From: Tachypleus tridentatus
Taxonomy: Eukaryota > Arthropoda > Merostomata > Xiphosura > Limulidae
Direction: 5' to 3'
NCBI RefSeq assembly: GCF_004210375.1
Contig: NW_027467782.1
Coordinates: 32,043,771 to 32,107,770 of the forward strand
Length of the DNA: 64,000 nt
The notes beneath the pieces are model-generated. The model worked only from the letters and a program-made list of their open reading frames with translations. It did no database searches and was not told where the DNA came from. Positions 13,836-46,493 of the stretch are shown piece by piece. Every line of letters begins with the position of its first letter. Within the stretch, counting starts at the first letter, position 1. A program made the translations under genes and the position numbers.

Positions 13836-13940
13836 TTTTCTGTTGCTACTTAAAGGAACAGTTTATTAATAGCATGAAATCTTGGTATTTTTATAATAGA
13901 ATGTGTTGAAAATGAAAATTTTTCTCTTGTATGTATAAAG

Positions 13941-14069
13941 GTGTTTTAAAGAGACTGATAGAAAAGTGTAAAGATGGAGAAAATGTACTAAGCATATGTG
14001 AACTTGGTGACAGTCTGCTATTAGAAGAAACTGGAAAAGTCTTTAAAAAAGAAAAGGAATTAAAAAAAG
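13941..14069 (+). CDS. PA2G4: PA2G4-like exon a
   Basis: Acceptor AAG at 13938-13940; the first two bases complete a split codon. Encodes [20 protein letters not shown] then [22 protein letters not shown] and the first base of Gly. Donor GTAATT at 14070. It corresponds to the region after the conserved N-terminal TKYK segment of PA2G4, whose exon I could not find upstream. Confidence 0.93.
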
Positions 14070-14071
14070 GT

Positions 14072-14990
14072 AATTTCAGTGCTTCTATTTTTATCTGTCT
14101 AAAAATCTTTGTTTTATTTTTAAATTATGCTTCACAGATAAGACCAAAATATTGTTTAAAATAATGTTTATTGTTCTTCTTTTTAATATCAGTTTTAGTA
14201 ATTTGATTGAGGTCTTAAAAATTCATAACATTTCTGCTACCAGGTTATTTATTGACTTTTGAGTAAAACCAGCAAACTGGTGTCTGCAAGAACTAAAGAT
14301 TTTAAAAAAGCATTTTTGAGCTCAGGAAGCCATTATACAGACATATTAGCATAATATTTTCACAAATAATAATCATACTTGAGCATTTTTCAGAAATTAT
14401 CTACTTATGTTTATAAGGGGCATGAAAATGCTTATTAAAATCTGTAGATTTACAAACTTATACTGTTAAATTAGAACTATCTAGAACAGTAGAATCTGTT
14501 TTACTTTTTAGAGAAACTTGTAACAAAAGAAAGTCTTTTTTTTGTGTACAGAAAAAGTATTCAATACCTTGAAACAATCCATTTATCTCTCATCACATTG
14601 TAGCTATTTTTCAAAGAAACATCTTAACATGAACTACACTAATCTGTGATATAATCATTGTGCAACAATAGCTCTCCACCAGCAGGAGGGTGACACATAC
14701 CTTGTATGCAGTCTATCCCATAAAGCAGTTTAGCTCAGGAATAATTTTATCCTTTAACTTGCTACTGTAATGAATGGACATGTTTATCATTGTTCAGTTT
14801 TTTTTTCAAATAAGCAAGATTTGCACAGCCTTTATTCCAGTATTAATTTTCATTCATTTCACTTCATATGGTTTCAAGTTCAATTTCAAACTACACTGTC
14901 TTTTGATTACTGAATTATAAAACTTGATTTGGAGCAATTCTTTAACAAGTAAATTGTTTAGTGAATGTGACTGTTACTTCCTCCTAAGAT
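14072..14990. other. Intron sequence, AT-rich
   Basis: No repeat or gene recognised. Confidence 0.4.
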
Positions 14991-16769
14991 TCTTGTGATG
15001 TTGCCAACACTGCTTCCACTTTGTTTGTGGCCACTGGAGGCTCATTGATTGTGAAGGATGTTACTACCATTGTTCAGTGCATCATGGATTTGTTAGTTCT
15101 TTTCCTGCTTCATCTCTTTCTTCTTGTGTTGAAATTGCCTTCCACCATTTCTGAACCCAATCACGGGGATAGTAATTGTGATAGTCCTTTATACCTCCTA
15201 GATTTGCAATAAGCTCCTCTTTACGTGTTGAGGATACTTTTACTCTTCCATGTCACTTTCTAGATCTTATTTCTCAGGTTTGTTTACTTTCACTTTCACC
15301 TATGCCTTTTATTCTTCTTGTTTCTTAGTAACCTGCTCTTGTGCCAAAGGTTATGTGGCTTTTCCTCATTTTTCAAATATGTGTATCCATACTGACCATT
15401 TTCTGAAACAGTATTTTGTGTGCGTGCACACCCACACAGACAACTTGTGCTTCTTGAGTCCAGGATTCCTTTGCTATAACTCTTGGCTGTTCTTCTGTTC
15501 CATTTGTGTATGCCATAGAATTACTTTTACTCACTTGTGGAGCTGATCCCCTGTCTCCAGTAATTTTCTCTAATGCTCAATTTTTCCATTCTCACCTTTT
15601 TACCTGCCCATCTTTTTCCTTGCTCATCTTCTCTTTTTCTCTTCTATGAAGCCTTAAACTTTGATCTTGAAACGTTTTCTAGGGATTTACAGTTGGTACT
15701 TTTCAATTACTTGGCCAAGGTTTAGTCAATCATCTGGAGACTTGAGCTGAGGCTATCCATCACCAGTCCTTTTTTTCCTCCTTGTTTTGTTATCTCTTTG
15801 CTTCTTTTCATTGCCTTCCCTCTCTTCAAGTTAGCTGTCACACATTCCATAGACAGCTTACTACTTTGTGCCTACTCAGCTCAGGCCTTTTGGGGAGTGA
15901 ATTTCTGTTTTGATTTGCAAACCCCTGGATGACTCCATTTGAAGCCAAACAGTTACTGTTATTCAATTACTTACCCAAATCATTTTGTTTCTCATCTCTA
16001 TTTTTCCTCTATTTTCCAAGCTTAAGTGTCTTCTGTGTTTCAAAGTTGTGGTATCAGATCTTTTGAACAGGAGAGTCATTAAGCTATGTGCTTAACTTCG
16101 AAACAAAATAAACTACAAAAGTAAGGATGCTGTGCTCCTCTCCAGGGTTTTATTCTCATTTTTTTTGTTTCCCTTGAAGAGATTGAATACTAGTGACCCA
16201 TCGTCAGTTATCAACCTTTTTTGCAACTACTGTCTTGTGGTTCCTTAGTTCAAGATGGAGATATTTCTTCCACTCAGTTGGTTTTTTTTTCCCTGGACAA
16301 TTCCAGTTGCCTCATTCTCCTGCCATTTTCATAGATATGTTTACCAGGATAAGGTATATATGATTTTCAAGTTTTTCCCTTTAGCATCAGTTGGGTTTTT
16401 TACGTATTCAGATGAGTCATTGTGATATTTTCTCACCATGTTCACAGTCTTCTCATTTTGTCCACATCACTTCTTTTCTAAGATACTTTGATTCTCAGGC
16501 TTAACCTTCCCAGTTTGTCTGTGAAACAAGGAACAGTTAGTGACTTTGAGTCTTAGAAAGATAGATAAGAAAATTTTTTCTGTATTTTTACAAACATGTC
16601 CACAAATCAGAATATCTAGTTCAGATAAATTAAATTAAAAAAGTGATAAGATGAGAAAAATATCCCTGATAGCTTTGAAAAATGTATTTTTATCTCAGCA
16701 AATGAAGAATATAGGAGCCTCAAATTCCGAAACATACTTACCAGCCATTGACAATATAACTTTTCACTT

Positions 16770-16945
16770 ACATTGGTTTTGCTTATCTAATCATTGGTGT
16801 TTCATTTTTAATTCTTATGTACTTTGCATAAATGCTCTTCACAACATCTAATTTGTAAGTTACTCCACCCTCTCCAGTGCACCCTCCATTCTGGTATTGT
16901 ATATAAGCACCTCACTTAGATAATGTAATCACTTTTTTTCAACCA
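16770..16945 (+). repeat. Left arm of a long inverted repeat
   Basis: ACATTGGTTTTGCTTAT ... CACTTAGATAATGTAATCAC pairs, with substitutions, with the reverse complement of 19480-19658. The strongest match is CACTTAGATAATGTAATCAC here against GTGATTATATTATCTAAGTG there. Confidence 0.75.
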
Positions 16946-19479
16946 AGAATTGTACACAGTTTTTTCTGTCAAAGAGTTATGCATCATCCCATTATAGATT
17001 ATGATTTATGTGCTATTTCATGCTTTTTCACTGTAATTATAATTTTAAAAAAATCATCAAAGTAGACATGATATTTGCAGGTGTTAATTTCCATGATACT
17101 CTTGACAGCAAGATGGTTAATTTAAGCTTCCCTACTCCTTTGTTATCTAGTATCTCTCTAAGTCAAGGAAGGATTACATTTTGTTGGGGCTGTCCATATT
17201 TTTATCTGTTGAGAGATGGAGGCATTCATTTGTTCTGGGGTCTTTTTTTCCTAGGCTTCTGAAGTTGCCTTTCTTGTTGATACTAGGGAGTATTTGGATT
17301 CTCTTTTCTAAGATTCTTGGAAGTCTAATTTGGATCCTATATTTTTCTTCAGTTAGCCATTTGGATTTGTGAGATTTTGGGTTGTTTTTTTTTGTTCCCT
17401 TAGAGTGTACTTTTACTTTGTTATTAGAGGTGTGGAGGAGATTAATTAGTTTCTCCTCCTTAAGTTTCTGGTTAAGGCTGGGATGTATATTGTTTTATGG
17501 GATAGATAGTCTTTTTACATGTGTTTCCTTGCCTTGATTTTCCATCTCCTGGAAAAGTATCCTTCTTGGCTGCTGATATGTTGATGTCATAAGTGGAGTG
17601 GTTAGCATGTTTGTAGGACTTTTTCTCTCCCCTTAAGTCCTGCCATATACTTATAGGTCCTTTCTAAGTTTCTTGCAGTCAATGAAGGAGATACATTCAT
17701 CTCTTTACTTCTCTTGCCATCTGTTTCTCCTCAGCAATCGATTGTAAACTGATAATTTGTTTTGATTTATCAGGCCTGGAAGTGTTATGTGAACCACTTT
17801 ATCTTCTCTAGTGGTGATTGTCTTGACTGTATATTAATTGGGATCCTTCAGCTTCCCTTGATTTTTCTCATTTTCTGATAGGTGGATTACCAAATATCCA
17901 TTTGCATATTTTGGTCTCTACAGGTGAGGTATCTGCCGAGTTAAATCTCATCAGATTCAACACATTTGCCATTTGCTGTCTATCATTTAACCAGTGGGAG
18001 ACATTTTATGGGCTTGTATTTTGGTTGTCAGACTAATCCAACTGCTTTTCTCTTATGTTCTTTATATGCTTGGGAAGCTATTTCTGGAATTATTTCCCTA
18101 CCTTTTGGCCATTTTTAACAACATCTGCTAGATTACAAGGAGTAGGAAGTTATTTTATATTATTTTGTCTATTTCCCAAGGTCCATTATATCTTGCTTTT
18201 ACTGGATCCAACTTTGTGGTGAATGTTGCTCAGACAGGTGTGCTTCTCTCATTCCAGTTTCATACTAGCACCAGTTTTCTTATTCTTACTGCTGGTTGCA
18301 ACATGACTTCTAGAAATGAGATGTTCCACAAGACCATCTAGACACCTTCAAAATGGTATTATTGTGGTATAGATTGCCACTCATGGACAATCATGAGTAA
18401 AGCTAAAGGGGATCCTGTCTGTTCCCACTGATATTTAGGTTGAATAAAATGTGGTTAGTTTGCTTTTTAAAAATTTAGGGAACTTGTTTCACTTATTGCA
18501 CTGTTTTCAGAACACTGTTCTTCAGGTCTCCCTGAATTGCTGTAACCCACAGATTCTAGTAGTGTAGTTAGGGAGTCCTAACCAAACCAAATTTTCAGTC
18601 ACTTTGGTTGTGGACAAAAGTTTTTCCTCCAGAGTGTTAGTATGCTCCTCCAGTTTTTAAGAAGAGGGGAAAGTTGGAGACTTGGATCCCTGGATGTCAG
18701 GAAGCCTACTCATAATTCTTGTTCAGATTTGACACCAGGCAAACAAATTGAGATCTGCATGGCCCTTCTCTTTAATCATTGGTGCTTTTGTATGTTATTC
18801 GTGGAAGAAAGTCCATTATCTTCTTGTAATTCTGAAAATGAAATGGTCTTATCCCAAGTCTTTAGTTGAGCACAAGTTCCATGTCCTCTCCTTAGTTCCA
18901 GGGGTAAATGGAATACATCTTGCTCACTTGGATGAGGAGTGAGGATGAATGTTCATAATTCCAGACTGGATAAGTTCTGTTGTTTTGGTTGAGTACAGCA
19001 TGTGTGATCTCATTGTTCTAAGCCTGGAATGTTGCTTTTTGGACTTTTTTCAGGTAGAGGAGAAAGTTTGCTTACTTCAGTGTTGCATACTTTCTCATTT
19101 GATTCTGGTGGCATGAAACACATCACTATAGGGGTACAGGTACGATCCAATCAAAAGTTCAATTGCCCTAATCACCAACATTGGGTACAGGAATCAAGAC
19201 CACTTAATTCCATCCCCAAGTTGTAGAACTTTTGTTATCTGGTAAGGGTTGGCCTATAATGATGATTACTCATGTAGTATTCCACCCTTGATACAGGAAC
19301 TAGGCTGCAGGTGAAGGGCATAGCATACCTGTTCTGGATGTAGTGTGGTTTCCCCTGCTCGTGTGCTACTTTTATTTTATTTTCTGTATGGATTATGCTC
19401 TCAAAAGCCCCTCCACTTTCTTGGTGTGGGATTCTAGCTGCACAATCTCCTGCCCTACCTCCCCACTAAGAGCTGGTGC

Positions 19480-19658
19480 AAGTCTTGAAAAAAGTGATTA
19501 TATTATCTAAGTGAGGTACTAAAATGCAGTACCAAAATGGAGGATACATTGATCAAGGAAGGGGTAATCTGTAAATTGGATATTGTTCAGAGCTTTTAAG
19601 TGGGGATAAATGGTTGGAGCCATACGAGACCAATTCTAACATAAGAAAAGCCAATGTC
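19480..19658 (-). repeat. Right arm of a long inverted repeat
   Basis: Inverted partner of 16770-16945. Similarity covers about 170 bp with moderate divergence. DIRS elements have inverted termini, but the RT-like segment lies left of both arms, so this could also be two oppositely inserted copies of one repeat. Confidence 0.75.
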
Positions 19659-19660
19659 TG

Positions 19661-20132
19661 AGAATAATTATGTTGTCAATGGTGGTAAGTGTTAATGGAA
19701 ATACATTTTTAGTCAAAGGAAATATTAACTTCAATATTCTGGTTTGTAAGTATCTGTACTTTGTGTTTTTTAATTGGTTGGATATTCTTGTAAGTTGTAA
19801 TGTAAGAGAAAATTTAAAAATGAAACTTCAAAGAGGAAATTTGTCATGTGACACAAAAGTGAATATTGAGAATCAATTTCAGTATATCCTCCTGAAATTA
19901 AGAACATAAACTTTAAATTATAAACTGTTTTGATGCCAAGTTTATTAACATACGTTGATAATAAAGCTGTTTAAATGTCACAAAGTATAAAAAATAACGT
20001 ATTTAAGTTATACATGTCTAATAGCCCAAGCTTAATACATTCCAACTATAAACTGAATTTTAAGTTTTCTTGGGTAGCTTGTACTATCTTAGTTTAATTC
20101 CATAAATTGTATAGCAGTATCCTTTCTTCCAG
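19661..20132. other. Intron sequence, nothing recognised
   Basis: AT-rich sequence ending in the acceptor TTTCTTCCAG of the next exon. Confidence 0.5.
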
Positions 20133-20238
20133 GTATTGCTTTTCCAACATGTGTTTCTGTGAACAACTGCATCTGCCATTTCTCACCTCTGAGAAGTGAT
20201 CCTGATGTCATATTGAAAGATGGAGATGTTGTAAAACT
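20133..20238 (+). CDS. PA2G4: PA2G4-like exon b
   Basis: Acceptor CTTTCTTCCAG at 20122-20132, donor GTATGT at 20239. Encodes (G)[17 protein letters not shown] and [17 protein letters not shown] plus the first two bases of a Leu codon. It is very close to known PA2G4 proteins and shows no lesion. Confidence 0.95.
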
Positions 20239-20699
20239 GTATGTATAACACTATTGCTTTTATCTAACTAGATTTTTAATGTTTATTAAAGAATGTTGTG
20301 ACATGTACAGAAAAATATGCATGGGGCTAGTGCTAAAATTATATTATTTATCCTCAACAGAAAGCCAAGGTTTTAATCTATCAGATGACAGTATTTTACT
20401 TTTTTTTTCTGTAGAGAAATTTATATATTTCCTTTTGAGTGAAAACTTTATTTCCCCAGGAAACAAATCAACAAGCTCTTGTCACATAGTGATGAAACTG
20501 GAAAAGTTGGGGTAATTATGGGACATTGTCAGCATTTTGTATGTGATTATTTAATTAAACGAAACATTATTTAGGGCAGTAATTCCAGTAATATAAAAAC
20601 ACCGCAGTAAAGATTTTCTCTCTCTAAACTAAACCCCTACGCTTGTTTGCGCCATCTACAGTCAAAAACAACAACAACAGAAAAGACTGAGTTAAGTAC

Positions 20700-21010
20700 T
20701 TGATGTTTTTGTCCTTCCTGTGTATTTTTTGGTTATTATAATAAAAGTAACTAAAATGCAAAAAATTACAAATTTTTAGGTTAGTCAAGATTAGGTAAAA
20801 TAAAGAAAAATAAGATATTTTCATGAGGTATGCTTCTGAGTAGCTTTTGTGTTATGTAATTCTATAGAGTAACACAAACTGTACGTTTTATAGTGATTTC
20901 CAAACATTATGCCAAACAAGTCATTTTAAAGGGTAATAAAACAGCAAACATCAAATATAAAAAGATGTATACTGTTACAAGTTTAAAGCTAATTAACCTT
21001 AGGTCATGGG
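20700..21010 (+). repeat. Unclassified interspersed repeat, copy 1
   Basis: Similar along about 300 bp to 29860-30150. Shared blocks are TTATTATAA.AAAAGTAA, TTTTTAGGTTAGT, TTTCATGAG, TTTTTAGTGATTT and AAAGAGATGTA.ACT (with substitutions). Confidence 0.65.
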
Positions 21011-21182
21011 TTAAAGAACCTGTTATTGCATTTGTTGACTTACATTCAAAATTTTATTCAACTACTATTTTATGAACATATATCCTTAAGCTGTTGGTAT
21101 CAAGCTGTAGAATATAATTCAAATTTTCTTATCATACATTAAATATTAAACACATTGGTCATTTTCCTTTTGCATTCTTTGA

Positions 21183-21746
21183 TTGTTTTTATATCTCATA
21201 TTCATTACTGGAGCTTTATTCTCTTGTCTTTACCTTCTCTTCACTCTCATCTCTTCACAATTGTTTTCTTCTTATTTCCTATTTGACCCCTCCACCAGGT
21301 TCTGGATAGTTTTTCTGGGGTGTCTGTGGTTATTCCTTGTCCCTACTCAGATCAGGATCTCATCTTTGGCTTTCTCTCTCTTCATACAGTTTCTGTGTAG
21401 TTGGCATCTATTCAGATATGACACCCTTTTTCTTCTTGTTCATCTCCTTAAATCCTTCGTACGTGACTTGCATCTTTCTTCTCTCTCATTTGCCATGAGG
21501 TATCTAAGGCATTGCTCTCACCTTGGTGACTCAAGCAGAAAGTGTTTATCAATTTATTTTCACTTCTTAGCTCACCCGTCGTGTCTATTCCTGCATATTC
21601 TTACACATTACTTGACTGCACCTTGTTTTTTATGTTTTACATTTCTTTTTTCTTTGCCTCCTCTCACTACTCTCTCTCCTGGATGGTTTGCTTTTGTCTG
21701 TCATCCTGATGATTACAACTCTTTGTACCCAATCAACTTAGGATAG
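21183..21746 (+). pseudogene. DIRS-type C-terminal remnant, possibly tyrosine recombinase
   Basis: An open frame of 187 codons, rich in Leu, Ser, Phe and Cys. The order LVPTQIRISSLAFS, AMRYLRHCSHLGDSSRK, HPSCLFLHILTHYL resembles the end of DIRS tyrosine recombinases (alternating CP..AL..YL.R and SRKRLF, then H.L..YL). Its composition matches the DIRS-like stretch upstream, and TACTCAG.TCAGG occurs in both. The family call is tentative; the frame could be open by chance in pyrimidine-rich DNA. Confidence 0.35.
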
Positions 21747-21759
21747 GGGCTCGTATTTT

Positions 21760-23638
21760 TTTCTTTGTTAACCTATGTAAAAGATCTCACTATGTAGATC
21801 AAGTGAGTGAAAACAACTTGATTTAAAGAGAACATCTCACACTTAGTTTATTTTAACTCTTTTGAATGCCTTTGCTTTGTTGATAAAATCTGTTGTTCAG
21901 TTCTGGTTGTTTTAGTGTTTTTATTTCTCAAAGCATGCAAATTGTATCACTACAAATTCTGTATCTGATGAAGCCCATCTGTATTTCACTAATTTAGTTT
22001 GATGGTAAGTTTAATTATTTTTTCAGTGATTTTGAAATGGAAAGCATTTTCCCTTTGAGACTTGGAAATGAAATTCATTTGTAATTTGTTTGTTGATAAG
22101 TCTGGTAATGTTCCAAATAGCAACGCTATTGACTTTTCAGTTTTGGAGTCATTTTCTAGTTTGTAAAGCATTTGAATCTGTCTTCTCCACATTGGTTTTG
22201 CAGCAGTGGATATCTACTGTGGATATATTTAATGGTTTTTCTAGACCTTTCAGTGCCTTTTCATATCCTAGTTTGTCAGTGTGTTTTCTATGTTAGATCC
22301 AAACATGTTTTTGTGGCTACCATTGCAGCTTATACAAAATAAACCCCCTATTACACTTTGCCTTGGTCACTAACCTTGTACTTTACTTAAGGTTTATTTA
22401 CATGTAAAAATTAAAGTAAGATCTTAACTTAGTGTAATAGCCTTTTAACTTGTATAAACAAACACAAATTGTTTATACTTAAAGTTTATGAGTGTATGAG
22501 AACTACACCTCAGCAGTATTGTATAATAAAACTCCAAAAAATAAGTTTTGTATACAAAGACAACTTTTTGCAATCAAGTAAAATTAATTTAGGACTGAAT
22601 TTTCAATGTTATCCATGTTCAGTGAGTTTGCTGGTTTTTGAATAAAAAATACACAATTTCAAAAATTATTTTTCTCCTAGTTATAAGACCCATATTTAGT
22701 TTTTTGTAGTTTAATTCAAATTAATTTTCACACCATGTATTTTGTAAAATAATCTATTATTTATCACACGTAATCTGTTTAATATGATTATCCATTATTT
22801 TCTGAAATTTCTGTTATGATAAGTTTGAAGAAGAAAGAAAGATTAATTGTAAACTGCACATTATTACAGTCTTAGTGATGACTCTGTTGTGCATAGATGC
22901 AACTTCCTGGTCTACACTTAAGCAGACCAGAGGCTCAGAAGTCCATTGGGATATGTTAGAAACTTTACAGTTACGTTTGAATGAGAGTATTGTGGTTTCA
23001 GTTTCTGTGGTCATATTTCTTATGGGAAACAGTCTCTGGTTTTGAGATGTAACTGGAAGCTTTTGGCTTAAAAACCTTTGTCAGTTTTAGTACTTGTTTG
23101 TATTCTTGTTAATTGCACCAAGAAGTAGGTCCATTTTTTTGTTGTAGTGACATTTCAGGTGTGGGGTCGTTCTTTGTAATTATGGCCTTGATTTTGAAGA
23201 TTAGGGTATTTTTGTAGATTGTAATGTAATTTTTGGATTACATTGCAGTGTTAAATACTTAGTGTTGTGAGTTTTTTCACATCCATTGGAAAACAATGAA
23301 GCCTTCTTTCTTTAAAATGTTATTTGAATCTATATGGTTGACAATCTCACCATGTGTAAGTCTATTTTTGAAAGAGCTGTGGTATGTTCTTGTAGACATA
23401 AACCTATCCTAGTGATATTGAGTGGTTGGGAATTTACCATGAATTAAATAAAGAAACTAAACATAGCTCTGTGACTTCTATCTGTGGTGGATGTCACTTC
23501 ATTCATATAAATCTCCATTTGTACAAAACATGTAAGGTTATATTTATTGTATTTTAATTTTTTATTTAATTTATTCATGAACAAAAAGATTAACTTTATG
23601 TTTTCAACTACATACGTTGTGTGTTTTGTACATTTCAG
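21760..23638. other. Intron sequence, no gene recognised
   Basis: AT-rich. No exon. Ends in the acceptor TACATTTCAG before exon c. Confidence 0.4.
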
Positions 23639-23708
23639 AGGCCTTGGAGCTCATATTGATGGTTTTATTGCTGTTGTGGCCCACACCTTAGTAGTTGGTA
23701 GCTGTAAG
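23639..23708 (+). CDS. PA2G4: PA2G4-like exon c, donor site damaged
   Basis: Encodes (L)GLGAHIDGFIAVVAHTLVV then GSCK. The first complete codon, GGC at 23640-23642, is Gly where PA2G4 and methionine aminopeptidases have Asp (K-I-D-L/F-G); in active aminopeptidases that Asp binds metal. By homology the exon should end after AAG at 23708, joining ENKVTGRK in the next exon with exactly the family's length. The intron then begins GAAAGA instead of GTAAGA. A GTAAGG four bases earlier would put a TGA in frame. A GT at 23718 would stay in frame and add three residues. Confidence 0.88.
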
Positions 23709-24512
23709 GAAAGAAATGTGAAAAAAGTTCATTTAGATCAGACGTGGTAAATATTTTCAGATGCAGGAACCAGCCCCAAAATAGAGGAACCTGATATGCC
23801 TAACATTACTTCACTATTATTTGTACATGGAAATGGGGGCTACATTAGTGCCTCAGTTACCAGCACCTCTGTTACCTACAATCTTCGATTATCTGTTATT
23901 GTTTATTTTCCCATATTTTTTAAAATAATTGTGCTATTACAATTGTAGACAATAAGTTACATATTTTGGAGAAATTGTCACTCAGAAATTGTGGTTGCAA
24001 AAGTTTTAGGTGTTGGACAATATCTAGGGTTTATTTATGTTGAATCTGGCATTTGTTCAAATCATAAATTAGCTGGTTCAAACATAACTTTGCTTCTTTT
24101 ATTTTTAGCTGTTGAGGTAAGAATACAAAATATTGAAAAATTGTACTTAGATTAAACAATGGGCTAACTACTGAAATATAAAAGTGCTTCAATTATCCTA
24201 TGTTTTTTTTGTTTTTGTTTTCCATGGACTAGTGGGATAATTAAGTCAGCAATGTGTATTTACTTGTTTTCAGGACAACAAGTGAATGTTAATGATCTCA
24301 TGATATCAACAATCATTTAATAGTATTGCCTTAACAACCTACCTTTGGTATCATTAGAATCTAAACATATCTACTGATTGGTTGAGCTAATAATAATAAT
24401 AAAAAACAACAATAACAGTGGAGCAAAATTTCTAATGTGTTGTGTAACTGCAGCATTTCATTCCTGAAAAAACCATTAAGTGCTGATTCCACTGTTAAAT
24501 TCCTAGAAGTCC

Positions 24513-24645
24513 CCCCCATTGCACAGTGGTATGTCTGCAGACCCACACTGCTAAAAACCTGGGTTTTGATACCTGTGGTGGGCAGAACACAGACAGCTCA
24601 TTATGTAGAGTTGTGTTTAATTCTAAAACAAACAAATTCCTCGAA
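24513..24645 (+). repeat. SINE-C copy
   Basis: TTGCACAGTGGTATGTCTGC ... GTGGGCAGAACACAGACAGC ... TTAATTCTAAAACAAACAAA; the same architecture as 4785-4900. Confidence 0.7.
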
Positions 24646-24727
24646 ACAAAGCTCATTTTAGAACTCAAAGAACATGAAAATAGTTCTGGACTTCCAAGAT
24701 GTGAGTTCTATTTCGCACAACTCTATG

Positions 24728-24988
24728 GCCAAGCGCGTAAGGCGTGCGACTCGTAATCCGAGGTCGCGGGTTCACACCGCGATCGCTAAACATGCTCGCC
24801 CTCCCAGTCGTGGGGTGTATAATGTGATGGTCAATCCCACTATTCGTTGGTAAAAGAGTAGCCCAAGAGTTGGCGGTGGGTGGTGATGACTAGCTGCCTT
24901 CCCTCTAGTCTTACACTACTAAATTAGGGACGGCTAGCACAGATAGCCCTCGAGTAGCTTTGTGTGAAATTCCAAAACAAACAAACAA
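24728..24988 (+). repeat. SINE-A copy 4 with 13-bp target duplication
   Basis: Begins GCCAAGCGCG, slightly 5' truncated, with a complete body and a CAAACAAACAA tail. It is flanked by perfect direct repeats GCACAACTCTATG at 24715-24727 and 24989-25001. Confidence 0.95.
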
Positions 24989-25775: not shown

Positions 25776-25779
25776 TATA

Positions 25780-26867: not shown

Positions 26868-26880
26868 AGTCATGATTAAT

Positions 26881-26984: not shown

Positions 26985-26997
26985 AGTCATGATTAAT

Positions 26998-36000: not shown

Positions 36001-36990
36001 TTGGATGATCAATTGATTCTCCATTGTGTCAATATTTTGTGTTATTGTGAAGGACTACATATGTCATTTCCCAGATATTCAGACTGGTACACTACCTAAT
36101 GGATTTCTGTAGTGCCAAGAATTATGAGGTGCACTGTTTTGATACAGCTGCAGTTTTGTTTGGTTCATTAATGTATAGCAAAATTCGTACCTTGGTTGGA
36201 TGAGATGCAGCTCCCCACTTGTATTGATTCCCCACCATGCTTCACTGTAGATGTCATACATTGATATGATACCATACTTCTCTCTGTTGTCATTGTTGAA
36301 TAAACTATTGTTGATTGTACTGAACAATTATTACTTGTATTCATCTGTAAAAAGCATTCAGCTTTATCTTTGTTTGCTCCACTGTTGTGGTCAAATGCTT
36401 GTTTTAACCTTTAAACTGCCTTTTCTCAGCAGCTGTTTTCAAACAACTTCACCTCATCTCTGACCACTTTATGCCATTGAGTATCTTACTATTCTCAAGG
36501 TAACATTCACACCTTAAGGTTATTGGCCAGATCTACACTTAATTATCTACCTCATACTTATGTATCCTGTGATACCTACCACAAGTTATGGAGAGTCTGG
36601 GTTTTCTGTCTCAACCACTTTTATTATCAGAATGTCAGTTTCATGTATTGCATACAAATGCCACTAAAACGTGGTGTCTTGCCACTTCTTTTGCAAAGAG
36701 TATTCTAGACTTGTCAAAATTAATTTCTACCTACTTGTCATCAGTATTTTGGTCCTAAAAATTATGATTGAATTCATACTACTACTGGGCATAGTATAAC
36801 TGCTTGTACTTCATTTCACTTTCACATTATAAAGGAGTGGCATTCTCATAGTATTTGTCTTTTATATATTCTTTCTTAGTAACTGTTTTCACTGTTACTT
36901 CTAGTACTGTATTTACACTTGTTCTAGTGTAATAATGTCTATAATTCTTTATCTGTAAACAAACCACTATAAAAAAATTTAGTGAAACCA
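36001..36990. other. Intron sequence, nothing recognised
   Basis: Less AT-biased than its surroundings and possibly another decayed element, but I could not assign it. Confidence 0.35.
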
Positions 36991-37019
36991 CAATTTTTTG
37001 TCATTTCTTAGAAATATTC

Positions 37020-37905
37020 ATTACATGTCCTCTCAGTGTGGATGCTTGTATGTAGTGAGGGGGACCTCCCAGAGAAAGTTCTGTCTTTTCAGTTTACCTC
37101 CTCAGTGACCTAAACTCGCCCAAATGTTTGCTGTGCAGGGTGATCAATGAAGGCGAGAAGAGGATCCTGGTGGTTGAGGGGTCCAACCCCACTACATCAC
37201 TTTGACCTTGAATTCACATGAATTGATGGTTTTGGGTCCTCCACCTCCAAGGGTCAGTTGGCTAGTCCTGTTGGTCTAAGGTCAGCTGAGTACCAGTTTT
37301 GGGCATTTTCAACAGTTTTTTTGTGAATTGTATCTGATGCTAGTGTTTGGGTATACCTCTCACAAAACCCTGGTGTTGCTGCAGTGTCCTTATTTATCAT
37401 TGTGGTGCATTCCTTGAATCCATGGTTGACAGGGTCAATGGGCACTGAACCTTTCTCATTGTACTATGGATTTCCCAAATCTGAATGAAAATGAAATAGT
37501 AAAAAACAGCTCATTGGTAAATGACCACATCTTGAAGACTTTGAACAACAGTCTCCAAGTCATTCAATATCTTACCCTAAAGTGTGGTCAGACAAAGAAT
37601 GAAGTTTAAGAAAATTAGGTACAAAGTCTCCCTTTTAATCACAAAGGAATAAAGTGGTTTACTGACTCTTCACAGTCTGGCAACATCTTGGTGGAAACAC
37701 CTATGCTGAAACACACTAAACTCCTCCTCAGTTGTAAGTCCATTGGGGGTATACTCATGATGCACTCCCCATGATACATTGAATTTCTCATGAGGAGTTA
37801 TTATTGAGAGGGATTTGAAGAACATCCCTGAGTTCGAGATCCTTGCTGGTTTCTTCAGCCAAGGCATTTCATCTGTGCTCCATATCTCCACTTACTAGGA
37901 CTGAA
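37020..37905 (+). mobile_element. LINE fragment with 5' UTR-like region and ORF1 start, 3' truncated
   Basis: A relatively GC-rich leader is followed by ATG at 37466 (MDFPNLNENEIVKNSSLVND...) that stops after 47 codons at TAA 37607. Later, HKGIKWFTDSSQSGNILVET (about 37640-37700) and CTPHDTLNFS, IIERDLKNIPEFEILAGF (about 37750-37850) match jockey/CR1-type ORF1 proteins in the domain before the zinc knuckles. Frames change at least twice. The rest of ORF1 and all of ORF2 are missing. Confidence 0.65.
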
Positions 37906-38369
37906 TTACCTTGACATTTACATTACCATATCCACATGCCTCTCTTAAGGCAAGTTACCTAATATATAAGGTACGGTCATATGTTTCTAACCCTCTCCAA
38001 TGTTTCCAGTGTCAGTGGTTCAGATATTCAATGCATAAACAGGTGAAAAACATCTAAAGATATGTTATCAACCGGAATTGTTATGAATTGGTAAACCCTG
38101 AACAAGTTAGAAAATTTGCTAAAAAAATTATAATACATTAAATAATTCATTGGTTGCCAAACAAAAGTTTCAGATCTTTCTCATGACAAGTGCAGCAATA
38201 AATAATATTGAAAAAATGGATGATAATCTGTTGTAAACATGTAATAATAAAATTTCTTCACTAAAGTGAAATTTAAATTTACAAATATATCATTTTTGTA
38301 TTTTTACATTAAAATGAATTATTGAAAAATGTGTTTTAATCTTTTGTTTCTAACAAATTGTATTCACAG
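37906..38369. other. Intron sequence, nothing recognised
   Basis: AT-rich; ends in the acceptor TATTCACAG. Confidence 0.5.
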
Positions 38370-38448
38370 GGCTGAGAAATGGATACAAGGACAACAGTGT
38401 ACAAGAAGACAGATGAAATTTATCAACTAAAGATGAAAGCATCTATAG
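38370..38448 (+). pseudogene. PA2G4: PA2G4-like exon g with in-frame TGA
   Basis: Exon f ends in phase 0, so this exon reads GGC TGA GAA ATG GAT ACA AGG..., that is G-stop-EMDTRTTVYKKTDEIY then QLKMKASI. The TGA at 38373-38375 sits where relatives have a basic residue. A CGA-to-TGA CpG transition would explain it. The Arg expected before AFFSEV is Ile (ATA). The acceptor CAG and donor GTCAGT are canonical, and the exon ends in phase 1, matching exon h. Confidence 0.9.
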
Positions 38449-39388
38449 GTCAGTACACCTTTATTAAATGTAAGTAATGAAAAAACTATAACCCTAATAC
38501 GCATCTTTTCATTAAATAAGGGTTGCCAGAATCTCTGTATAACTCGCTCCTGTTTTCATTGAAAGCAGTTAATGGGGTCTGATCCCCAGTCCATCATACT
38601 AGTTTGTGATGATTGATATTAATGTTTTAAACTTCTTTAATACAATAGTCTGCCTGAAATACATCAGGAACTATTGAAGCTACAGTGAACTCAATATTTC
38701 TCTTATTGTTTTATCAAAACCTCATAAATTTCCTTTTCTTCAAAATTGTCAGCAAAAGATTTTATCAAGACACTGAGAAAGCAAACTATTTTAACTTTTT
38801 TGCTTTATGAATTGACACTTTTATTCTTCATGTGGGACAGACGCTATATCAGCCATATTTACACCGTGAACAACAATGCTGACTTTTTAGCTTGGATACG
38901 CAGTTATACCATTATGAAGAAAAGTTTTACACATGACAGTATAGAGATATTAATTAGATAAATATATGAGTCAATGTTTCCAACACTGTATACATTTAAT
39001 ACAAGAGGTATCAAAATATATACATAAATCAGTCCAAACATGATTCAGTAATATTGAAGATGGTGGAACTTAGCTTGTTTTAGGTTGGGAATATTTTTGT
39101 TGTATGTTCTGACTTCCTTGAGACTTGTACAACCTATATTTTAATGTATTTCATGTTTGCTTACTCACATTACTTTATCAAGTGTTTTAGGAAAAAAAAA
39201 TGAATATTTTTCCAGAGTAATATATAAGGTTTCTCATTTTGATGTCAGGAAACATTTAAAGCAGGATCTGTATAATGCACCTCTGAGACTTTATTTATAT
39301 AAAAATGGGATGTAATACAATAAATTAAAATTTTGGCAAGTTTTACATAACCTTACATTTTGAGCTTCTAGTTTTCTTTTGTAATATA
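38449..39388. other. Intron sequence, nothing recognised
   Basis: AT-rich, no exon or repeat identified. Confidence 0.45.
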
Positions 39389-39390
39389 TA

Positions 39391-40189
39391 CACTCAGTGG
39401 CTACTTCATTAGGTACATCTGCAAATAACCAAACAGTGAATAATGTGGCTGTGACTTGCTATATAAAGCATGTAGACACCATCAAAAAGTTCAGTTGTTG
39501 TTCGACCAAACATTAGAATGGGGAAGATGCAACTTTGACCATGGAATGATTGTTGTGTCAGGTGTGATGGTTCCAGCATCTCAGAAACTGAGATTTTTAT
39601 GTACTACAATCTCTAGAGTTTATAGAGAATGGTGCAAAAAGAAAAAAAAACATCCAGTAAGCAGCAGTTATGTGGGTGAAAACACCTTGTTAATGAGAGA
39701 GGTCAGAAGAGAATGGTCAGACTCGTTGAAGCTAAGAGAAATGCCACAAATATTAAAATAACCACTCTTTACAACATTGAGTTTCAGAGGGGCATCACTG
39801 AATGCACAACACATTGAAAGTTAAAGAAGTTTGGCTACATCAGCAGAAGATCTTACCAGCTTCCACTTCTGTCATCTAAGAACAGGACGACGAGGCTACG
39901 GTAGACATGGGATCACCAAAACTGGAAGATTAAAGATTGAAAAAACATTGCCTGTTCTGAAAAAATTTGATTTCTTCTGCAACATGCAGATGGTATGGTC
40001 AGAATGTGGCATAACCAGCATGGAGCTGGAATTGAATTATGATATTGAGTCAGTATAGACGAAAATCCCTAAGGAATGTTTCTAGCACCTTGTTGAATCC
40101 ACAATGTGAAGAATTCAGGTTGTTCGAGAGGCAGAAGGAGGTCCTATCTAGTAGTAGATAGGTGTACCTAATAAAGTGGCCACTGGGTG
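39391..40189 (+). mobile_element. Tc1/mariner element, internally deleted, with terminal inverted repeats
   Basis: The ends CACTCAGTGGCTACTTCATT (39391) and AATAAAGTGGCCACTGGGTG (to 40189) are inverted repeats of about 30 bp, each next to TA (39389-39390, 40190-40191), the Tc1/mariner target. Inside are broken transposase pieces: FDHGMIVVSG, TTISRVYREWCKK (helix-turn-helix), then in other frames DHQNWKIKD and ADGMVRMWHNQHGA near the DDE domain. The C-terminal catalytic half is largely deleted, so the element is about 800 bp. Confidence 0.85.
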
Positions 40190-40191
40190 TA

Positions 40192-40932
40192 TGTAGGTGT
40201 GGGTGTTAGGTAATATTTTAAAATTGTTTACTTTAATTTAGCATTAGGTACAAGGAATAGTTTATTCATTAAGACATCTTTACATCTTGTTAGATTTATT
40301 GAGACTTAAGTGTAGAAGAGAAACACGAGAAGAGTCTCTCAAAAGTATAGCTTTAATTTTTCATTAATTCGTTATTAGTAATCTGAACACAGTATTAAAA
40401 TAAAAATTTAGAAATCACTGTAGGCTTGCAGTAGTTGGCTGCAATTAGAATAATTCATACTGATTTTTAAAAAAATCATAAAACTTCAGGTTTTTCTAAC
40501 AAGGCATCTGAAACATGACTTCTGTAATTGTATTTTCTTCAAGAAATGTATCTAGTGACTTCATATGTAGGTGTGTATGGATTTGTTTTGTTTTTTTGAG
40601 ATCAACTAGTTTACCCTTGTATTTTTGGTAGAGGCATTTTACTTTGTTAGTATATTATCTAGGAAGAGAACTCTGTTTAAAAATATTGTATAAACAATAA
40701 GTATTTTGGAAATGCAACAGAATATGTAGACAAATAAATTTAATGTTAATAAAAACCCAAGAATGTTTGTACTGATAATTATCTTGAGCAAGTTCCGTTG
40801 TGCATAATTCTACTTGCTATCACTTACACATACATGTATGAAAAAATAAAATTCTACAGAAATGTAAACCTTTAGTGATTTAGAAGTTTCTTTGGGTAAA
40901 TGGGAATGTATTATGTTGGTTTTCTTTTGCAG
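40192..40932. other. Intron sequence, nothing recognised
   Basis: AT-rich; ends in the acceptor TTTCTTTTGCAG. Confidence 0.5.
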
Positions 40933-40979
40933 CATTTTTCAGTGAAGTAGAAAAGAAGTTTGGAAACTTTCACTTTGAG
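40933..40979 (+). pseudogene. PA2G4: PA2G4-like exon h with 5-base deletion
   Basis: Starts by completing Ala, then FFSEVEKKFGN. The family continues with about M-P-F-T-L-R. Here, after GGAAAC (to 40967), the text goes straight to TTTCACTTTGAG. Adding five bases restores F-T-L and the AG of Arg, and gives the phase 2 end that exon i requires. Without them the frame is lost. Donor GTTATT is weak but has GT. Confidence 0.88.
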
Positions 40980-41039
40980 GTTATTGTCAAGATTTTTTAT
41001 TTATGCATGTCTAATTTCAAATATAATACTTAAAACATA

Positions 41040-41449
41040 AGATAATAGATTTGAAAGTTCATACAAATTATTTAGTTGCTCTGTTGTACTTAAGAAACTT
41101 AAAAATTTTTATTGTAGGTTATATTGCTTTAATGGTTGATGATCATTGTTAATGAAATGTTTCTTTTATACACACAAAAAATATGCAACTATCACATACA
41201 AAGAATGATTTATTAAATATTTTATTTTCATATATTAATTATAAATGTGAGATATTTTTGTGTGTATGTGCTTGAATATTTGATATGCTCAGGAGTTCGC
41301 AAGGTAAATGTCGAAACGTTTTTCATTTTGTAACTAGTGTTATGTTAATAATTTACCTTTAAAATTTAGATTCTGTGGTCTGTTCTACACCAAGTGTTTA
41401 AGATGGGAATGATTTTTAGCACAAAAATGTATGTTAAGACGGCTGTTAT
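41040..41449. other. Intron sequence, nothing recognised
   Basis: AT-rich, between exon h and the Penelope-like remnant. Confidence 0.45.
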
Positions 41450-41882
41450 GGTTGTTAGAACTTATATTAAAATAAGTAGAGAACAACGTTTCCACCTTCT
41501 TAGGCCATCTTCAGGTTACCAAAGAGAAAGTTTGCAACTGACTGTTGCCAAGCACATGTCTTAGGAACGAGAGTGTAAACATGTAAGGGATTGTAGGTGG
41601 TGTTGCACTTAACATACCAATATCTAGGTGGCTTTTTTTAAATATTTCTGTTAAATTGAGAAATTAACTAACATACAGTACTAACATGTGGATTACATTT
41701 TACTGTTTCATATCAATCTTATTAACATTAGTTCATAAAATAGTAGTTGAATAACATTTTGAATGGAGTCAAGAAATACAAAAATGTAGCTTTTGACCCA
41801 CGTCAGTAGGGAAATATAAATGTATTCTTAAAACAATTGGTATGAATATTGAAACTTTAATTAAAATAATGTACATAACGGT

Positions 41883-41910
41883 GTTTTGACCTTCTTAGGT
41901 CGTCTTTAGG
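41883..41910 (-). ncRNA. Hammerhead-ribozyme-like core, degraded (tentative)
   Basis: The minus strand reads CCTAAAGACGACC, TAAGAA, GGTCAAAAC: a CUGANGA-like core (damaged), a GACC/GGTC stem and GAAA-like text (damaged). Penelope-like elements are known to carry hammerhead motifs in their terminal repeats. Cleavage competence is doubtful. Confidence 0.3.
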
Positions 41911-41939
41911 ACAACAAAGTTTGTAATTGACCATTGCTG

Positions 41940-42335
41940 GGTACATATCTTGGCAACAAGAGTGAAAAGGGCACAGAATTGTGGGGGATGTTGCAGTTAG
42001 ATGTTAGGTTAGTAATTAGAATAGCCATAAAGGTGTTCCTTTATATTGGTTTAACTATGGTTTTTTGTTTTATAAGTAGGGATTCTTTATTTTTATATAT
42101 TTGTATCTCTACTTAGTATCTTGGTATTTTTCATGGTTGTGTTGTGTTTATTTGATTTGCAATGTTCAAAAATGTGTGAAGGTGTTTTTTTTTTGGTGTT
42201 CATTGAAACTAGTTTCCATTTTTCTGCTTGTTTCTCCATTATAAAAGTTGTGGCATTTACACTGTATTTCATAAATAATGTTGGTGTTATTTTGTCAGTG
42301 TAGTTTTACATAGTATGGACTTTAGTTTTGTACCT
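41940..42335 (-). pseudogene. Penelope-like C-terminal region (GIY-YIG-type), degraded
   Basis: Follows the RT remnant on the same strand. In shifting frames it reads HKPGTKLKSILCKTTL, then THIFEHCKSN, MKNTKILSRDTN and KESLLIKQK. The H..KPGTKLKSIL link and the E.C.....NT.IL.....KE.LLI.QK order fit the endonuclease end of Penelope-like proteins. The CPYxxxxxG-type start is not visible. Confidence 0.5.
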
Positions 42336-42338
42336 GGT

Positions 42339-42671
42339 TTATGAATAAATTTGATGTATAGTGAAATGTTGTGTTTTGTTATAGTCCAGTATTGGTATTT
42401 TTCTGTGGATTTCTGTTTTGAATTGTGTGTCAGTTCTTGCAATATTGAGGTTGAGAAATGTTATTTGGTTAGTGTATGGAGTTAATGTGGTTGAAAAAAA
42501 AAAAAGTGTGCATCCAGCTGTTATATTGACACAATATCTGTACCAGTATAGTGGTGGGTGTAAGACTGAATTGATCACTTGAGATTCGATCTGTATCATG
42601 AAAATGTTGGCTAGAACTTGTGGCATGTGATTGCCCAGATTTAAGCCATTTATTTGTAGGTCAGTTTTCAA
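42339..42671 (-). pseudogene. Penelope-like reverse transcriptase fragment
   Basis: Encodes NHMPQVLANIFMIQIE, ESQVINSVLHPPLYWYRY then CVNITAG and TQFKTEIHRKI. The G.P..P.LANIFM..LE, L...P..WYRYVDD and F.TE..RK order is diagnostic of Penelope-type RT. The catalytic YVDD is destroyed (YCVN), and part of the block after it is missing. 110 codons remain open. Confidence 0.85.
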
Positions 42672-42688
42672 AGTTTTTTTTTTTTTAA

Positions 42689-42716
42689 CCTGAAGATGAT
42701 CTCAGAAGGTCGAAAC
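42689..42716 (+). ncRNA. Hammerhead-ribozyme-like core (tentative)
   Basis: CCTGAAGATGATC, TCAGAA, GGTCGAAAC: CUGAAGA fits CUGANGA, a short GATC/GGTC stem follows, then GAAAC. The flanking stem strands are not clearly complementary, so this is a resemblance only. Confidence 0.3.
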
Positions 42717-43128
42717 ATTGTTCTTTATGTTAGTTTAAAAGTTTTGTTATCCACACCAGTTTTCTTGAGAATACATTTTCAGTCATTTTCTTGTAATCAG
42801 GTAAATACAAGTATTTGGGCCATTTTCGATGCAGACATTAATAGTTTTACATAAAAGATGAAAACTTGTATTACTCATTGTGATAATGTTAATCGTTAAC
42901 ATATAAAGCTAATGTTATTGTTAGGTTTTTAAAGCTACATTGTTTTATGTGGTTGATTTGAATAGATAATGTGTTATAAGTATATGAAGATGTTTTAGTA
43001 AAAGTAAAGGAATTTATTTTTCACTGATTCATTGAATATGTATATCAAATCCAGGTAATATTATTTATAATAATTAAACTATTTGTTTTGCTATTGCACA
43101 TATACATACTTTTCTGTTCTATCTTTAG

Positions 43129-43223
43129 GGCCTTGGAAGATGAAAAGAAGGCCAGGATGGGTGTGGTAGAATGTGTTAATCATAAACTAATAGAACCTTT
43201 CACAGTTTTATATGAAAAGGAAG
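43129..43223 (+). CDS. PA2G4: PA2G4-like exon i
   Basis: The first base completes Arg, then [20 protein letters not shown] and [11 protein letters not shown] plus the first base of Gly. Acceptor ATCTTTAG, donor GTTTGT. Closely matches [15 protein letters not shown]...LYEKEG of the family; intact. Confidence 0.95.
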
Positions 43224-43290
43224 GTTTGTTGATTGCTGTATACTATTTTTTTTAAATTTATTGATTGTGGAAATTTAGCATAATCATATT

Positions 43291-43347
43291 TGTTATTTTT
43301 ATAAAAGATATTTAAGAATAAAAATCATTATTACAAGATAACTACAT
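43291..43347 (+). repeat. 57-bp near-identical direct repeat, copy 1
   Basis: Starts TGTTATTTTTATAAAAGATA and ends GATAACTACAT. It recurs at 44548-44605 with one extra A. Confidence 0.9.
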
Positions 43348-43405
43348 GAACAAAAATGTTGTAATTGTGTCAAAATTTTGAGAAAAAGAATTTCTGGAAT
43401 TATGT

Positions 43406-43428
43406 AAGTTGCTCTCTCTCTCTCTCTA
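43406..43428. repeat. (CT)n microsatellite
   Basis: About eight CT units inside intron sequence. Confidence 0.8.
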
Positions 43429-44014
43429 ATCATCTTGTTTGTTTCAACTTTTGAAGTTTTGCCAGCATATAACCATTTCAACTCAGGCATGGTCCCTGTG
43501 GTCGACCCTGTAACCCTTTGTGCTTATTACAGTTTTCATTCGATTACTTTTAAATTAGTAAACACATGTTCACAAAATTTAGTAGATTATCAGTAAACAT
43601 TTCAAGGCTTCCATATGCAAATTTTCATGTTTTTTTATCAACTCTTGATGTTTGTTTAATCATGTTTTTTCTCATCGCTTTTTTATTTTACATGTTGCCA
43701 ATCTAACATGTAAAGTAGGTTTTATTTTAAGATTTAACGTACTTTTCAGATTTCACATGCAATGTCCCTATAAAGTTCAGATAGTTTTATCAAGTATTTC
43801 TTGAGAAAAATTTTATATTTTTGTTATTTTGTAAATGAAGCTCTGTAGGGTTCATTCAATTTGACCAATCTTTTGATCACCATATCAATAAATTTAGGAA
43901 ATGAATATTAATTATGCCTTTTCATTCTACAATGACTATGGAATATAAAACAAAAATGTAAGTGTTTAGACCAAATAGCTTAGATTTATTATTTTTATTA
44001 TATTCACCTTTATG

Positions 44015-44270
44015 GCCAGGCATGGCCAGGTGGTTAAGGCACTCAACCCATTATCTGAGGGTCGTGGGTTCAAATCTCTGTCACACAAAACATGCTCACC
44101 CTTTCAACCATGGGGTGTTATAATGTTATGGTCAATCCCACTGTTGATAAAATTGGCAGTGTGTGGTGATGACTAGCTGCCTTCTCTCTAGTTTCACACT
44201 GCTAAATTAGGGATGGCTAGTGCAGATAGCCCTCATGTAGTTTTGTGCAAACTTCAAAATAAACCAAACC
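44015..44270 (+). repeat. SINE-A copy 5, diverged
   Basis: GGCATGGCCAGGTGGTTAAG head, GGGTTCAAATC B box, complete but mutated body, tail CAAAATAAACCAAACC. Several CpG sites have become TG or CA, which suggests an older copy. Confidence 0.92.
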
Positions 44271-44547
44271 GTATTAAACTTTAAGCCATCCTGAATTACA
44301 ATGCAGAAGTTACAGTGACACAGCACATGCACTCGTGTTACCATATCGAATAATATAAAACTGTTATTCGTTTTTACAAAGTGACCTATTTGGGCTTCGT
44401 TTTAGTGGACTAGTATTTGGTAAATTACAGTCATGTTTGAATAATTATAAATATATGTATTATTACTATTTACTAACAAGTTCTTAAACATATTTTTCTT
44501 AAAACATAGAACAGTAAATAAAGTAGTAAAGCAAACAATTATCTCTT

Positions 44548-44605
44548 TGTTATTTTTATAAAAGATATTTAAGAATAAAAAATCATTATTACAAGATAAC
44601 TACAT
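44548..44605 (+). repeat. 58-bp near-identical direct repeat, copy 2
   Basis: Second copy of 43291-43347, 1257 bp downstream. Just after it, TTTTAAATTTTTGTGTTGCTGCAAGA (split: TTTTAAATTTTTGTG and TTGCTGCAAGA) recurs near 46569. Confidence 0.9.
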
Positions 44606-44609
44606 AACA

Positions 44610-46365
44610 GCAGTTTTTGTGCAGTTTTAAATTTTTGTGTTGCTGCAAGAATTATATGTAGAAAATGTGAAGGAAAATTATTTGTTTTTGCTTTCAGATA
44701 TATTTACGGTTAAATAACCAAAAAATCATACATTTCTTCATTTGTACCATAGAATTCCATTATTAACTAGTTAATTACTTAGCAGCTTTCGTTTCCAAAC
44801 AACAACAAAATCTTGAACTGGCTGAAGACTGTACTTACCAGCACAAAGGTTTGTTTCGAAAAAAATGAAAGAAAACTGTTTTCTATGAAAATGGCTGAGA
44901 AAATCACTAAGGGGAAATTTTGAGCTTCCATTGGCTTACTGACATGGCATATTAGAAGTAAATGTATATAAGGGACCATTTCCAGAACTGAAAGAGGTGA
45001 GCTAGGACCACTGTGTTTGTTGCACTGCATGAATACAGTGATAGCTCAGCAAATAAAGATGAAAAGATTCTGTTTTACGTTCTAGTTTGTCAATATTTAT
45101 ATTTTGAGTTCCTAATTTATACGGAACTATAGACTTTGTATTTTGACATCACAATCAACTAATTTGAACCAGTACTGAGTTTAACATACCATGTGACACA
45201 CACAAATCAACGTTTAGATGCATTTGTTTGATATTTACTTTTACATTACGAAATTTAATAATGTTTAATATGAAGATGTGAATTATTGTGTACAGTTTGA
45301 ACCCAAACTTAGGGAGATAAGTTCACAGAATAATAGTTCAATAAAACTTTAAGAGCAAGTCAACAAATGCAATGACATGGCCTATGACTCATTAGCTGTT
45401 GAGATGGGGTTAATAATTTATTGTGCTATTAATATGCATATGAATAAGTAAAACAACGAATATTAAAGGATGTTTCACCAAATTTCTGTGAAAGTATGTT
45501 ATTTGTTAAAAAATATGTTGTAGTCAGTCAACACAACATGTCGGAGTACAATCATTGAAATCTGCTGGGATGTAGTACAGGAATATTCAAAGAAACTACA
45601 CTTCTGCAGGGATATAAAACTAAGTGTTTACTAAAAAATGCTAATACAATAAACAATATTCATGATAATTATGCTTTTTACTGGAAAACAAAAGTAATTA
45701 TCAGGCGAATAAAAACTTTTTAAAATACTTGCAAGTTAGTGTCAAACAAGGTTGATATTTATACAAACTTATGTTGCACCAAAGCTTACATTATGTAACA
45801 TCAATTCATAAAAGTATTTTTATTTAAGAGTTTTGGATTTTATTGTATCATCTATCTTGCTTATCGTAATTTGCACTACTTTATTTATTTAATATTTTTG
45901 GTAATATATTTATACAACTTTAAATTTCTGAACATTTGATAAATCGTTCATTACTTCTTTGTCTCTCTCTGAGAGACAAAACATGAAACCTTGTGCTTCC
46001 TTCCTAACAGTTTTGATAAGTGGTCCATAATGGCAAAGTGAAGAAGAATTTTAACCAGACAAGGCACACTGTTAACCACCAGCAGTGTAAATTAATGATG
46101 AAGTTTTTGTTGATATTTGTTGTCAAATTCCATGTGCAATACTGGCACTTTTATGAAGGATCCAAACAGTTACACAAGTCCACGTTTATGAACAGCATGC
46201 AGCTAATGTGAGATATAAGTTAACAAGTATCTTTGGTAGATATGCTTCAAACAGTTTACTGATCCATTCACTGTATGCGTGTTTCTACATAAACATTGCC
46301 TTCTGTTATTGTATGTGTTAATGCTATTATGACGTATAAAACATGCTCTACCTTTCTTCTCACAG
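44610..46365. other. Intron sequence, nothing further recognised
   Basis: AT-rich, ends in the acceptor CTTTCTTCTCACAG before exon j. Confidence 0.45.
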
Positions 46366-46493
46366 GAGAACTGGTGGCCCAGTTTAAGTTTACTGTATTA
46401 CTTATGCCTTCTGGCTTGCACAAAATAACGGGTGAAGCAGTGGATTGGGACATGTATGAAACAGAACATGACATTAAAGATGATACCATCAAG
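46366..46493 (+). CDS. PA2G4: PA2G4-like exon j
   Basis: GA completes Gly, then ELVAQFKFTVLLMPSGLHKI and TGEAVDWDMYETEHDIKDDT plus IK; donor GTAAAT, phase 0. Matches the family's VAQFKFTVLLMP.G...I and the acidic linker. The final exon, encoding the lysine-rich tail (KKKKKK), is not found in the 17.5 kb downstream. Confidence 0.94.

Follow-up and report, generated by a model that had tools for sequence, protein, structure and literature searches.

Unprocessed pseudogenes carried within segmental duplications are a known class of sequence, for which primates provide the "core duplicon" pattern. The human PA2G4 (EBP1) pseudogenes are processed retrocopies without introns. Here we describe a copy of PA2G4 in a 64,000-nucleotide stretch of horseshoe crab DNA (the window; C19:32043771-32107770 of a 2.17-Gb assembly with 205 contigs) that is very probably an unprocessed (duplicated) pseudogene, produced when an already dead copy was duplicated again, and marked by two last lesions acquired afterwards. 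It has the exon-intron structure of its parent, a disabled coding capacity (stop, frameshift and donor loss, with exons 1, 6 and 13 not found), an intact parent gene, flanks that are duplicated where sampled, and relaxed constraint. In the primate core duplicons, too, introns are kept, flanks are duplicated, an intact parent exists elsewhere and dead copies have been re-duplicated; unlike them, the present case concerns a horseshoe crab and a conserved ribosome-associated factor, and no core element was identified. Human pseudogenes such as PA2G4P4 (PMC7235711) are likewise dead copies of the same gene, but the window copy retains ten exons over 32.5 kb. The ohnologues of horseshoe crabs (PMC4066314, PMC7210998, PMC7815833) are duplicates in the same lineage, and the pair of open-frame PA2G4 copies described below fits them in age, but the window copy is much more recent. 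The PA2G4 family is unusually much copied, and a literature search of partial coverage found, among the papers it listed, no report of a horseshoe crab family of PA2G4 copies.

Three other loci serve as references throughout: C11B, on the minus strand at C11:46466199-46538986 (46.47-46.54 Mb); C13c, on the plus strand at C13:268.46-268.49 Mb; and C11A, on the plus strand at C11:43.96-43.99 Mb within a block, C11:43950000-44003220, that it shares with the window. When the window was searched with human EBP1 by tblastn, nine PA2G4 exons were identified on the plus strand in protein order, with E values between 4e-14 and 2.0 (the weakest for exon 10), and a tenth, exon 9, was located by local alignment at 38370-38448. 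The outer limits of the ten spliced exons, 13941 and 46493, are identical to those of the first-pass annotation, which had read ten PA2G4/EBP1 exons in order here, and correctly so. Identity to human EBP1 amounts to 183 of 280 aligned residues, and the joined exon peptides matched chains of human EBP1 (PA2G4) in the PDB with an E value of 1.5e-102; the resemblance is therefore not due to chance. Each of three exons given to a profile search found TIGR00495 as its best match (57, 41 and 32 bits), single exons being fragments that fall below the whole-protein cut-off of 430 of this EBP1 equivalog model. All ten align with the exons of the parent gene together with flanking intron bases on both sides. 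The exons, junctions and limits are as follows, in window coordinates.

13941..14069, plus strand: PA2G4 exon 2, open frame; 25/42 residues identical to human
20133..20238, plus strand: exon 3, open frame; 26/34 residues identical to human
23639..23708, plus strand: exon 4, donor lost (GA at 23709-23710); glycine at the position of human D109
27825..27917, plus strand: exon 5, open frame
28160..28180, plus strand: exon-6 deletion junction; same junction at C11:43.96-43.99 Mb (C11A)
28812..28889, plus strand: exon 7, open frame; acceptor region 2 nt short relative to C11B, a shortage also present in C11A
31243..31321, plus strand: exon 8, open frame
38370..38448, plus strand: exon 9, TGA as second codon (38373-38375)
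40933..40979, plus strand: exon 10, 5 nt shorter than in five other aligned copies; frame broken
43129..43223, plus strand: exon 11, open frame
46366..46493, plus strand: exon 12, open frame
46608: breakpoint common to C11:43.96-43.99 Mb, where homology with the intact gene ends, before exon 13
1956..54299: minimum span of the segmental duplication whose counterpart is C11:43950000-44003220, from two end probes and the exon loci between them

Comparison with the intact copies bore out the stop, frameshift, donor loss and missing exons that had been noted from the window alone. The donor of exon 4 has changed from GT to GA; exon 6 has been removed by a deletion of 1.44 kb relative to C11B, with a further 3.7 kb of this intron missing from the window; and exon 10 has its 5-nt gap at about 40966/40967. 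No exon 13 was found beyond the 46608 breakpoint, either in the rest of the window or in the next 80 kb, and no exon 1 was found upstream of exon 2 in the window or in the preceding 60 kb. At the position of human D109, one of the two (of five) zinc-ligand positions that EBP1 keeps (PMC11266112), the window has glycine, and C11A, C11B and C13c have aspartate. Two further candidate lesions were rejected: exons 10 and 11 have their weak donors (gttatt, gtttgt) in the intact C11 gene too, and the valine at the position of human N120 occurs in C11A, C11B and C13c as well.

None of the exon chains tested runs from exon 5 to a later exon in frame and free of stops. With no exon 1 to supply a start codon, no exon-4 donor and no in-frame route through exon 5, a PA2G4 protein therefore cannot be read from the window. 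EBP1 is a catalytically dead protein of the MetAP fold that binds at the ribosomal tunnel exit, with a lysine-rich C-terminal helix and an N-terminal helix in contact with rRNA (PMC7005732); because the exons for both ends and for internal parts have been lost, a working product is not expected, and the copy probably makes no protein. It might still be a live gene, giving a shortened or non-coding transcript from which exons are skipped in frame: most splice sites are intact, and 26 exon chains are stop-free in the family frame (counted before the exon-4 end was corrected to 23708), the longest of which, exons 2-3-7-11-12, does without exon 4 and encodes 179 residues. Yet most of the fold is absent from the open chains, substitutions show relaxed constraint, and the terminal exons are missing, exon 1 having given no match on C19 in the genome query either; we consider such a gene very improbable.

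The first-pass annotation had expected a second, functional copy elsewhere, and a search of the same assembly for PA2G4 found an intact one in C11B. It has all 13 exons: exon 1 carries a consensus donor (GTAAGT), the frame is open over exons 2-12, exon 6 included, and exon 13 is present with its lysine cluster and stop. Its protein (exons 2-13) scores 536 bits against TIGR00495, above the cut-off of 430. C13c also has exon 1 and a frame open over exons 2-12; no exon 13 was found for it within the 1.5 kb searched. The two differ by a dS of 1.37, which is near saturation, and a dN of 0.049 (dN/dS 0.036; Nei-Gojobori), so that both are under strong constraint, from which it would follow that both work. 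A unitary loss, the other status that had been considered for the window copy, is ruled out by these intact copies. Limulus paralogues show peaks at Ks 0.71 and 1.34 (PMC4066314), and the divergence of C11B from C13c, about that of the older peak, fits in age and would make this pair the better ohnologue candidate.

The order of events is indicated by C11A, which has in common with the window copy the exon-4 donor loss, the exon-6 deletion junction, the 2-nt shortage before exon 7 and the 46608 breakpoint, and which lacks both the exon-9 stop and the 5-nt exon-10 gap; it has lost the exon-4 acceptor, which the window keeps. Because C11A has the other lesions but neither of these two, a dead copy appears to have been duplicated again, the stop and the gap coming later. 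In such a history the C11 PA2G4 gene (46.47-46.54 Mb, minus strand) would have been copied together with its introns, and the exon-4 donor, exon 6 and exon 13 would have been lost while the copy was still a single locus; the dead copy would then have been re-duplicated within a segment of at least 52 kb to give the copies at C11:43.95-44.00 Mb and on C19 (the window), and the latter alone would have gained the stop and the exon-10 deletion after the split. Errors of sequencing or assembly, striking a gene that is really intact, could account for the stop, a single-base change, and for the 5-nt gap, but exons 6 and 13 are absent with clean junctions and three lesions are common to an independently placed copy, which leaves this explanation practically negligible.

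The block shared with C11A was gauged by probes at window ~1956 (91.4% identical) and ~54299 (99.5%), the former lying in repeated sequence but at the colinear place in the C11A block, and between the probes it was sampled at the exon loci only. Over eleven sampled loci, selected where C11B aligns well and comprising 10,527 ungapped aligned bases, the window differs by 1.4% from C11A and by 3.6% from intact C11B. At a borrowed rate (Ks 0.35 over 114-154 My; PMC4066314), the window and C11A would have split very roughly 4.6-6.2 My ago, and the exon 2-8 part of the window would have split from C11B some 17.5-23.7 My ago. A 29-bp minisatellite (11.9 copies, 99% alike) at window 47698-48043 is present in the C11A copy too.

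The window and C11:43.95-44.00 Mb could instead be two haplotypes of one locus, assembled on different contigs, and the 500-N gaps and 99.4-99.6% identical segments do make unpurged haplotigs likely in this assembly. The suspected haplotigs are, however, 99.4-99.6% identical, against a difference between window and C11A of 1.4% overall and up to 2.7% locally; kilobase insertions and deletions separate the two, and they lie on different chromosome-scale contigs. We judge an allelic or assembly duplicate improbable, and even if it were one, the window copy would stay a pseudogene distinct from the intact gene.

That the host is a horseshoe crab, as had been supposed, is supported by the profile of coagulin (PF02035), to our knowledge a protein restricted to horseshoe crabs: it gave 19 matches in the assembly (best E 1.5e-25), and at one C11 locus four pieces together span the entire profile; it was matched in 0 of 14 control genomes. 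The suggestion built upon it, namely that the copy arose in one of the whole-genome duplications of horseshoe crabs and has decayed ever since, could draw on the lineage's two Ks peaks and on the proposal of three duplication rounds (PMC7815833), but it did not hold. The dS between the window copy and the intact C11 gene is 0.069, as against peaks of 0.71 and 1.34, and the sampled loci are 93.2-98.6% identical to that gene in ungapped columns; the dS of 1.37 belongs to the two open-frame copies. One stop in 293 codons (computed before the exon-4 end was corrected to 23708) allows at most about 0.10-0.15 neutral changes per site, less than the value of roughly 0.35 that the Ks 0.71 round implies for each lineage. 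An ohnologue would need gene conversion over the entire locus, introns and flanks as well, and is highly unlikely. The locus is better read as the recent segmental duplicate of a gene that was dead already than as an old whole-genome-duplication relic.

Substitutions were assigned to branches with C13c as outgroup, leaving out the gapped exon-10 codons and three ambiguous changes (1:2). The ratio of nonsynonymous to synonymous changes (N:S) is 6:4 in the window, where the stop is included, 6:3 for the branch that the window and C11A have in common, 3:1 in C11A and 0:3 in C11B. Summed over the dead branches, the ratio is 15:8. This is near what neutrality predicts (N fraction 0.74-0.80; P 0.07-0.22) and a long way off the constraint seen in the intact pair (dN/dS 0.036; P 1e-10 to 7e-9), a substitution pattern that shows constraint on the window copy to be relaxed.

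Several observations weigh against so simple an account of a gene that died and was then copied once. The dead-branch N:S lies slightly under neutral, and the shared branch may have been partly under selection; the contrast between the dead branches and the C11B branch (0:3) is not significant (Fisher P 0.06). The divergence of the window from C11B is uneven, 5.4% around exons 2-8 versus 2.2% around exons 9-12, and, with gaps counted, identity drops to 82-92% in intron pieces beyond the sampled blocks; for these reasons the history looks like a mosaic rather than a single split, and the average may understate the age of the 5' part. Some of the C19 copies may, furthermore, be assembly artefacts. 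The differences specific to C11B number 90/6010 in the exon 9-12 part versus 197/4517 in the exon 2-8 part (P 7e-19), and the greater closeness of the exon 9-12 part points to sequence exchange between living and dead copies. At C19:32.21 both the donor and the acceptor of exon 4 have been lost, and exons 2 and 3 are an exact match to the window; combining an acceptor loss of the C11A type with window-identical exons, this copy makes the dead copies look like mosaics.

A protein search of the genome with the window exon peptides gave at least 77 exon-level matches, which were grouped by eye into about 18 PA2G4 places (a lower bound, from which C13:105.5, at 40% identity, was left out), mostly fragments, on four contigs:

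C11: 43.96-43.99 Mb (plus strand, C11A); 46.47-46.52 Mb (minus strand, C11B)
C13: 268.46-268.49 Mb (plus strand, C13c); 96.01; 97.23; 97.27 Mb
C1: 83.1; 102.66; 102.71 Mb
C19: 2.22; 31.20; 31.22; 31.37; 32.02; the window; 32.17; 32.21; 32.28 Mb

Exons 11 and 12 are each found at 12 places or more. Exon 1 matched at least three places (C11B, C13c and a stray copy at C11:46.65) and exon 6 at least four (C11B, C13c, C13:97.28 and, at E 0.9, C13:96.02); among the best-scored candidates, neither query had a C19 match. The stray exon 1 (C11:46653909-46653992) is 91% identical in DNA, and its similarity to the intact locus starts at the start codon. Lesions recur in groups. The copies at C13:96.01 and 97.23 have a stop in exon 5 in common, and the three C1 copies a loss of the exon-13 acceptor; in two of these the lysine cluster is still followed by the same in-frame stop, and the third is frame-shifted at that point. 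C13:97.27 has a stop in exon 8 and C19:31.22 a frameshift in exon 12. Five C19 fragments (2.22, 31.20, 31.37, 32.02 and 32.17) matched exons 9 and 11, with exon 12 in four of the five, and are mutually 99.7-100% identical around exons 11 and 12.

Part of this C19 count is probably haplotig duplication (32.17, perhaps others). Three 500-N gaps lie in the window flanks (C19:31994697, 32110632 and 32154426), and at the last of them the abutting segments on both sides are 99.4-99.6% identical to others nearby: C19:32154926-32187770 repeats 32006733-32039576, and C19:32131905-32154425 is an inverted repeat of 32028745-32051288, which takes in window 1-7518. These segments are probable unpurged haplotigs, and PA2G4 counts in such assemblies are inflated by them and by dead fragments. 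For eIF6, the only other ribosome factor counted, there were 5 exon-level matches at 3 places, at most 3 per exon; eIF6 was counted by profile query and PA2G4 by protein query, with its 12 places each for exons 11 and 12 grouped by eye, so the contrast is weak. The M24 profile gave 17 genome matches, eight of which, cut out as loci, had no match to human EBP1 at E 1e-3.

We put forward only tentatively that PA2G4 may have seeded a recent burst of interspersed segmental duplication, in which the living C11 gene would have shed several large intron-bearing copies to C1, C11, C13 and C19, dead copies would re-duplicate (three groups, each with its own shared lesion), and living and dead copies would exchange sequence. 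The repeated dispersal is mildly interesting, the window copy itself ordinary; the lesion-marked copies can be used to trace interspersed duplication in horseshoe crabs.

In the window, Rfam at gathering scores gave 0 matches and ARAGORN 0 genes; human EBP1 searched against viral and genome contig collections had no relative confirmed. The G+C content of the window, from base counts, is 33.0%, like the 33.3% of Limulus (PMC4066314). On the minus strand at 1650-2773 lies an open reading frame (ORF) of secreted appearance whose start resembles a signal peptide; after it comes a second, diverged copy in a different frame, and there is a 162-bp tandem repeat (98% match) inside. Pfam gave nothing above cut-off for this ORF, which looks like a duplicated, decaying prepropeptide gene. 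Relics of non-LTR retrotransposons occupy 7279-10633 (plus strand; endonuclease and reverse transcriptase domains) and about 48080-50900 (minus strand; reverse transcriptase). A short SINE-like repeat, with matches of about 150-280 bp, is present in many copies, in the C19 fragments too, and starts in the window at these positions:

3526, 6673, 24806, 49767, 50888, 56060, 61940, 62363 and 63340: SINE-like repeat

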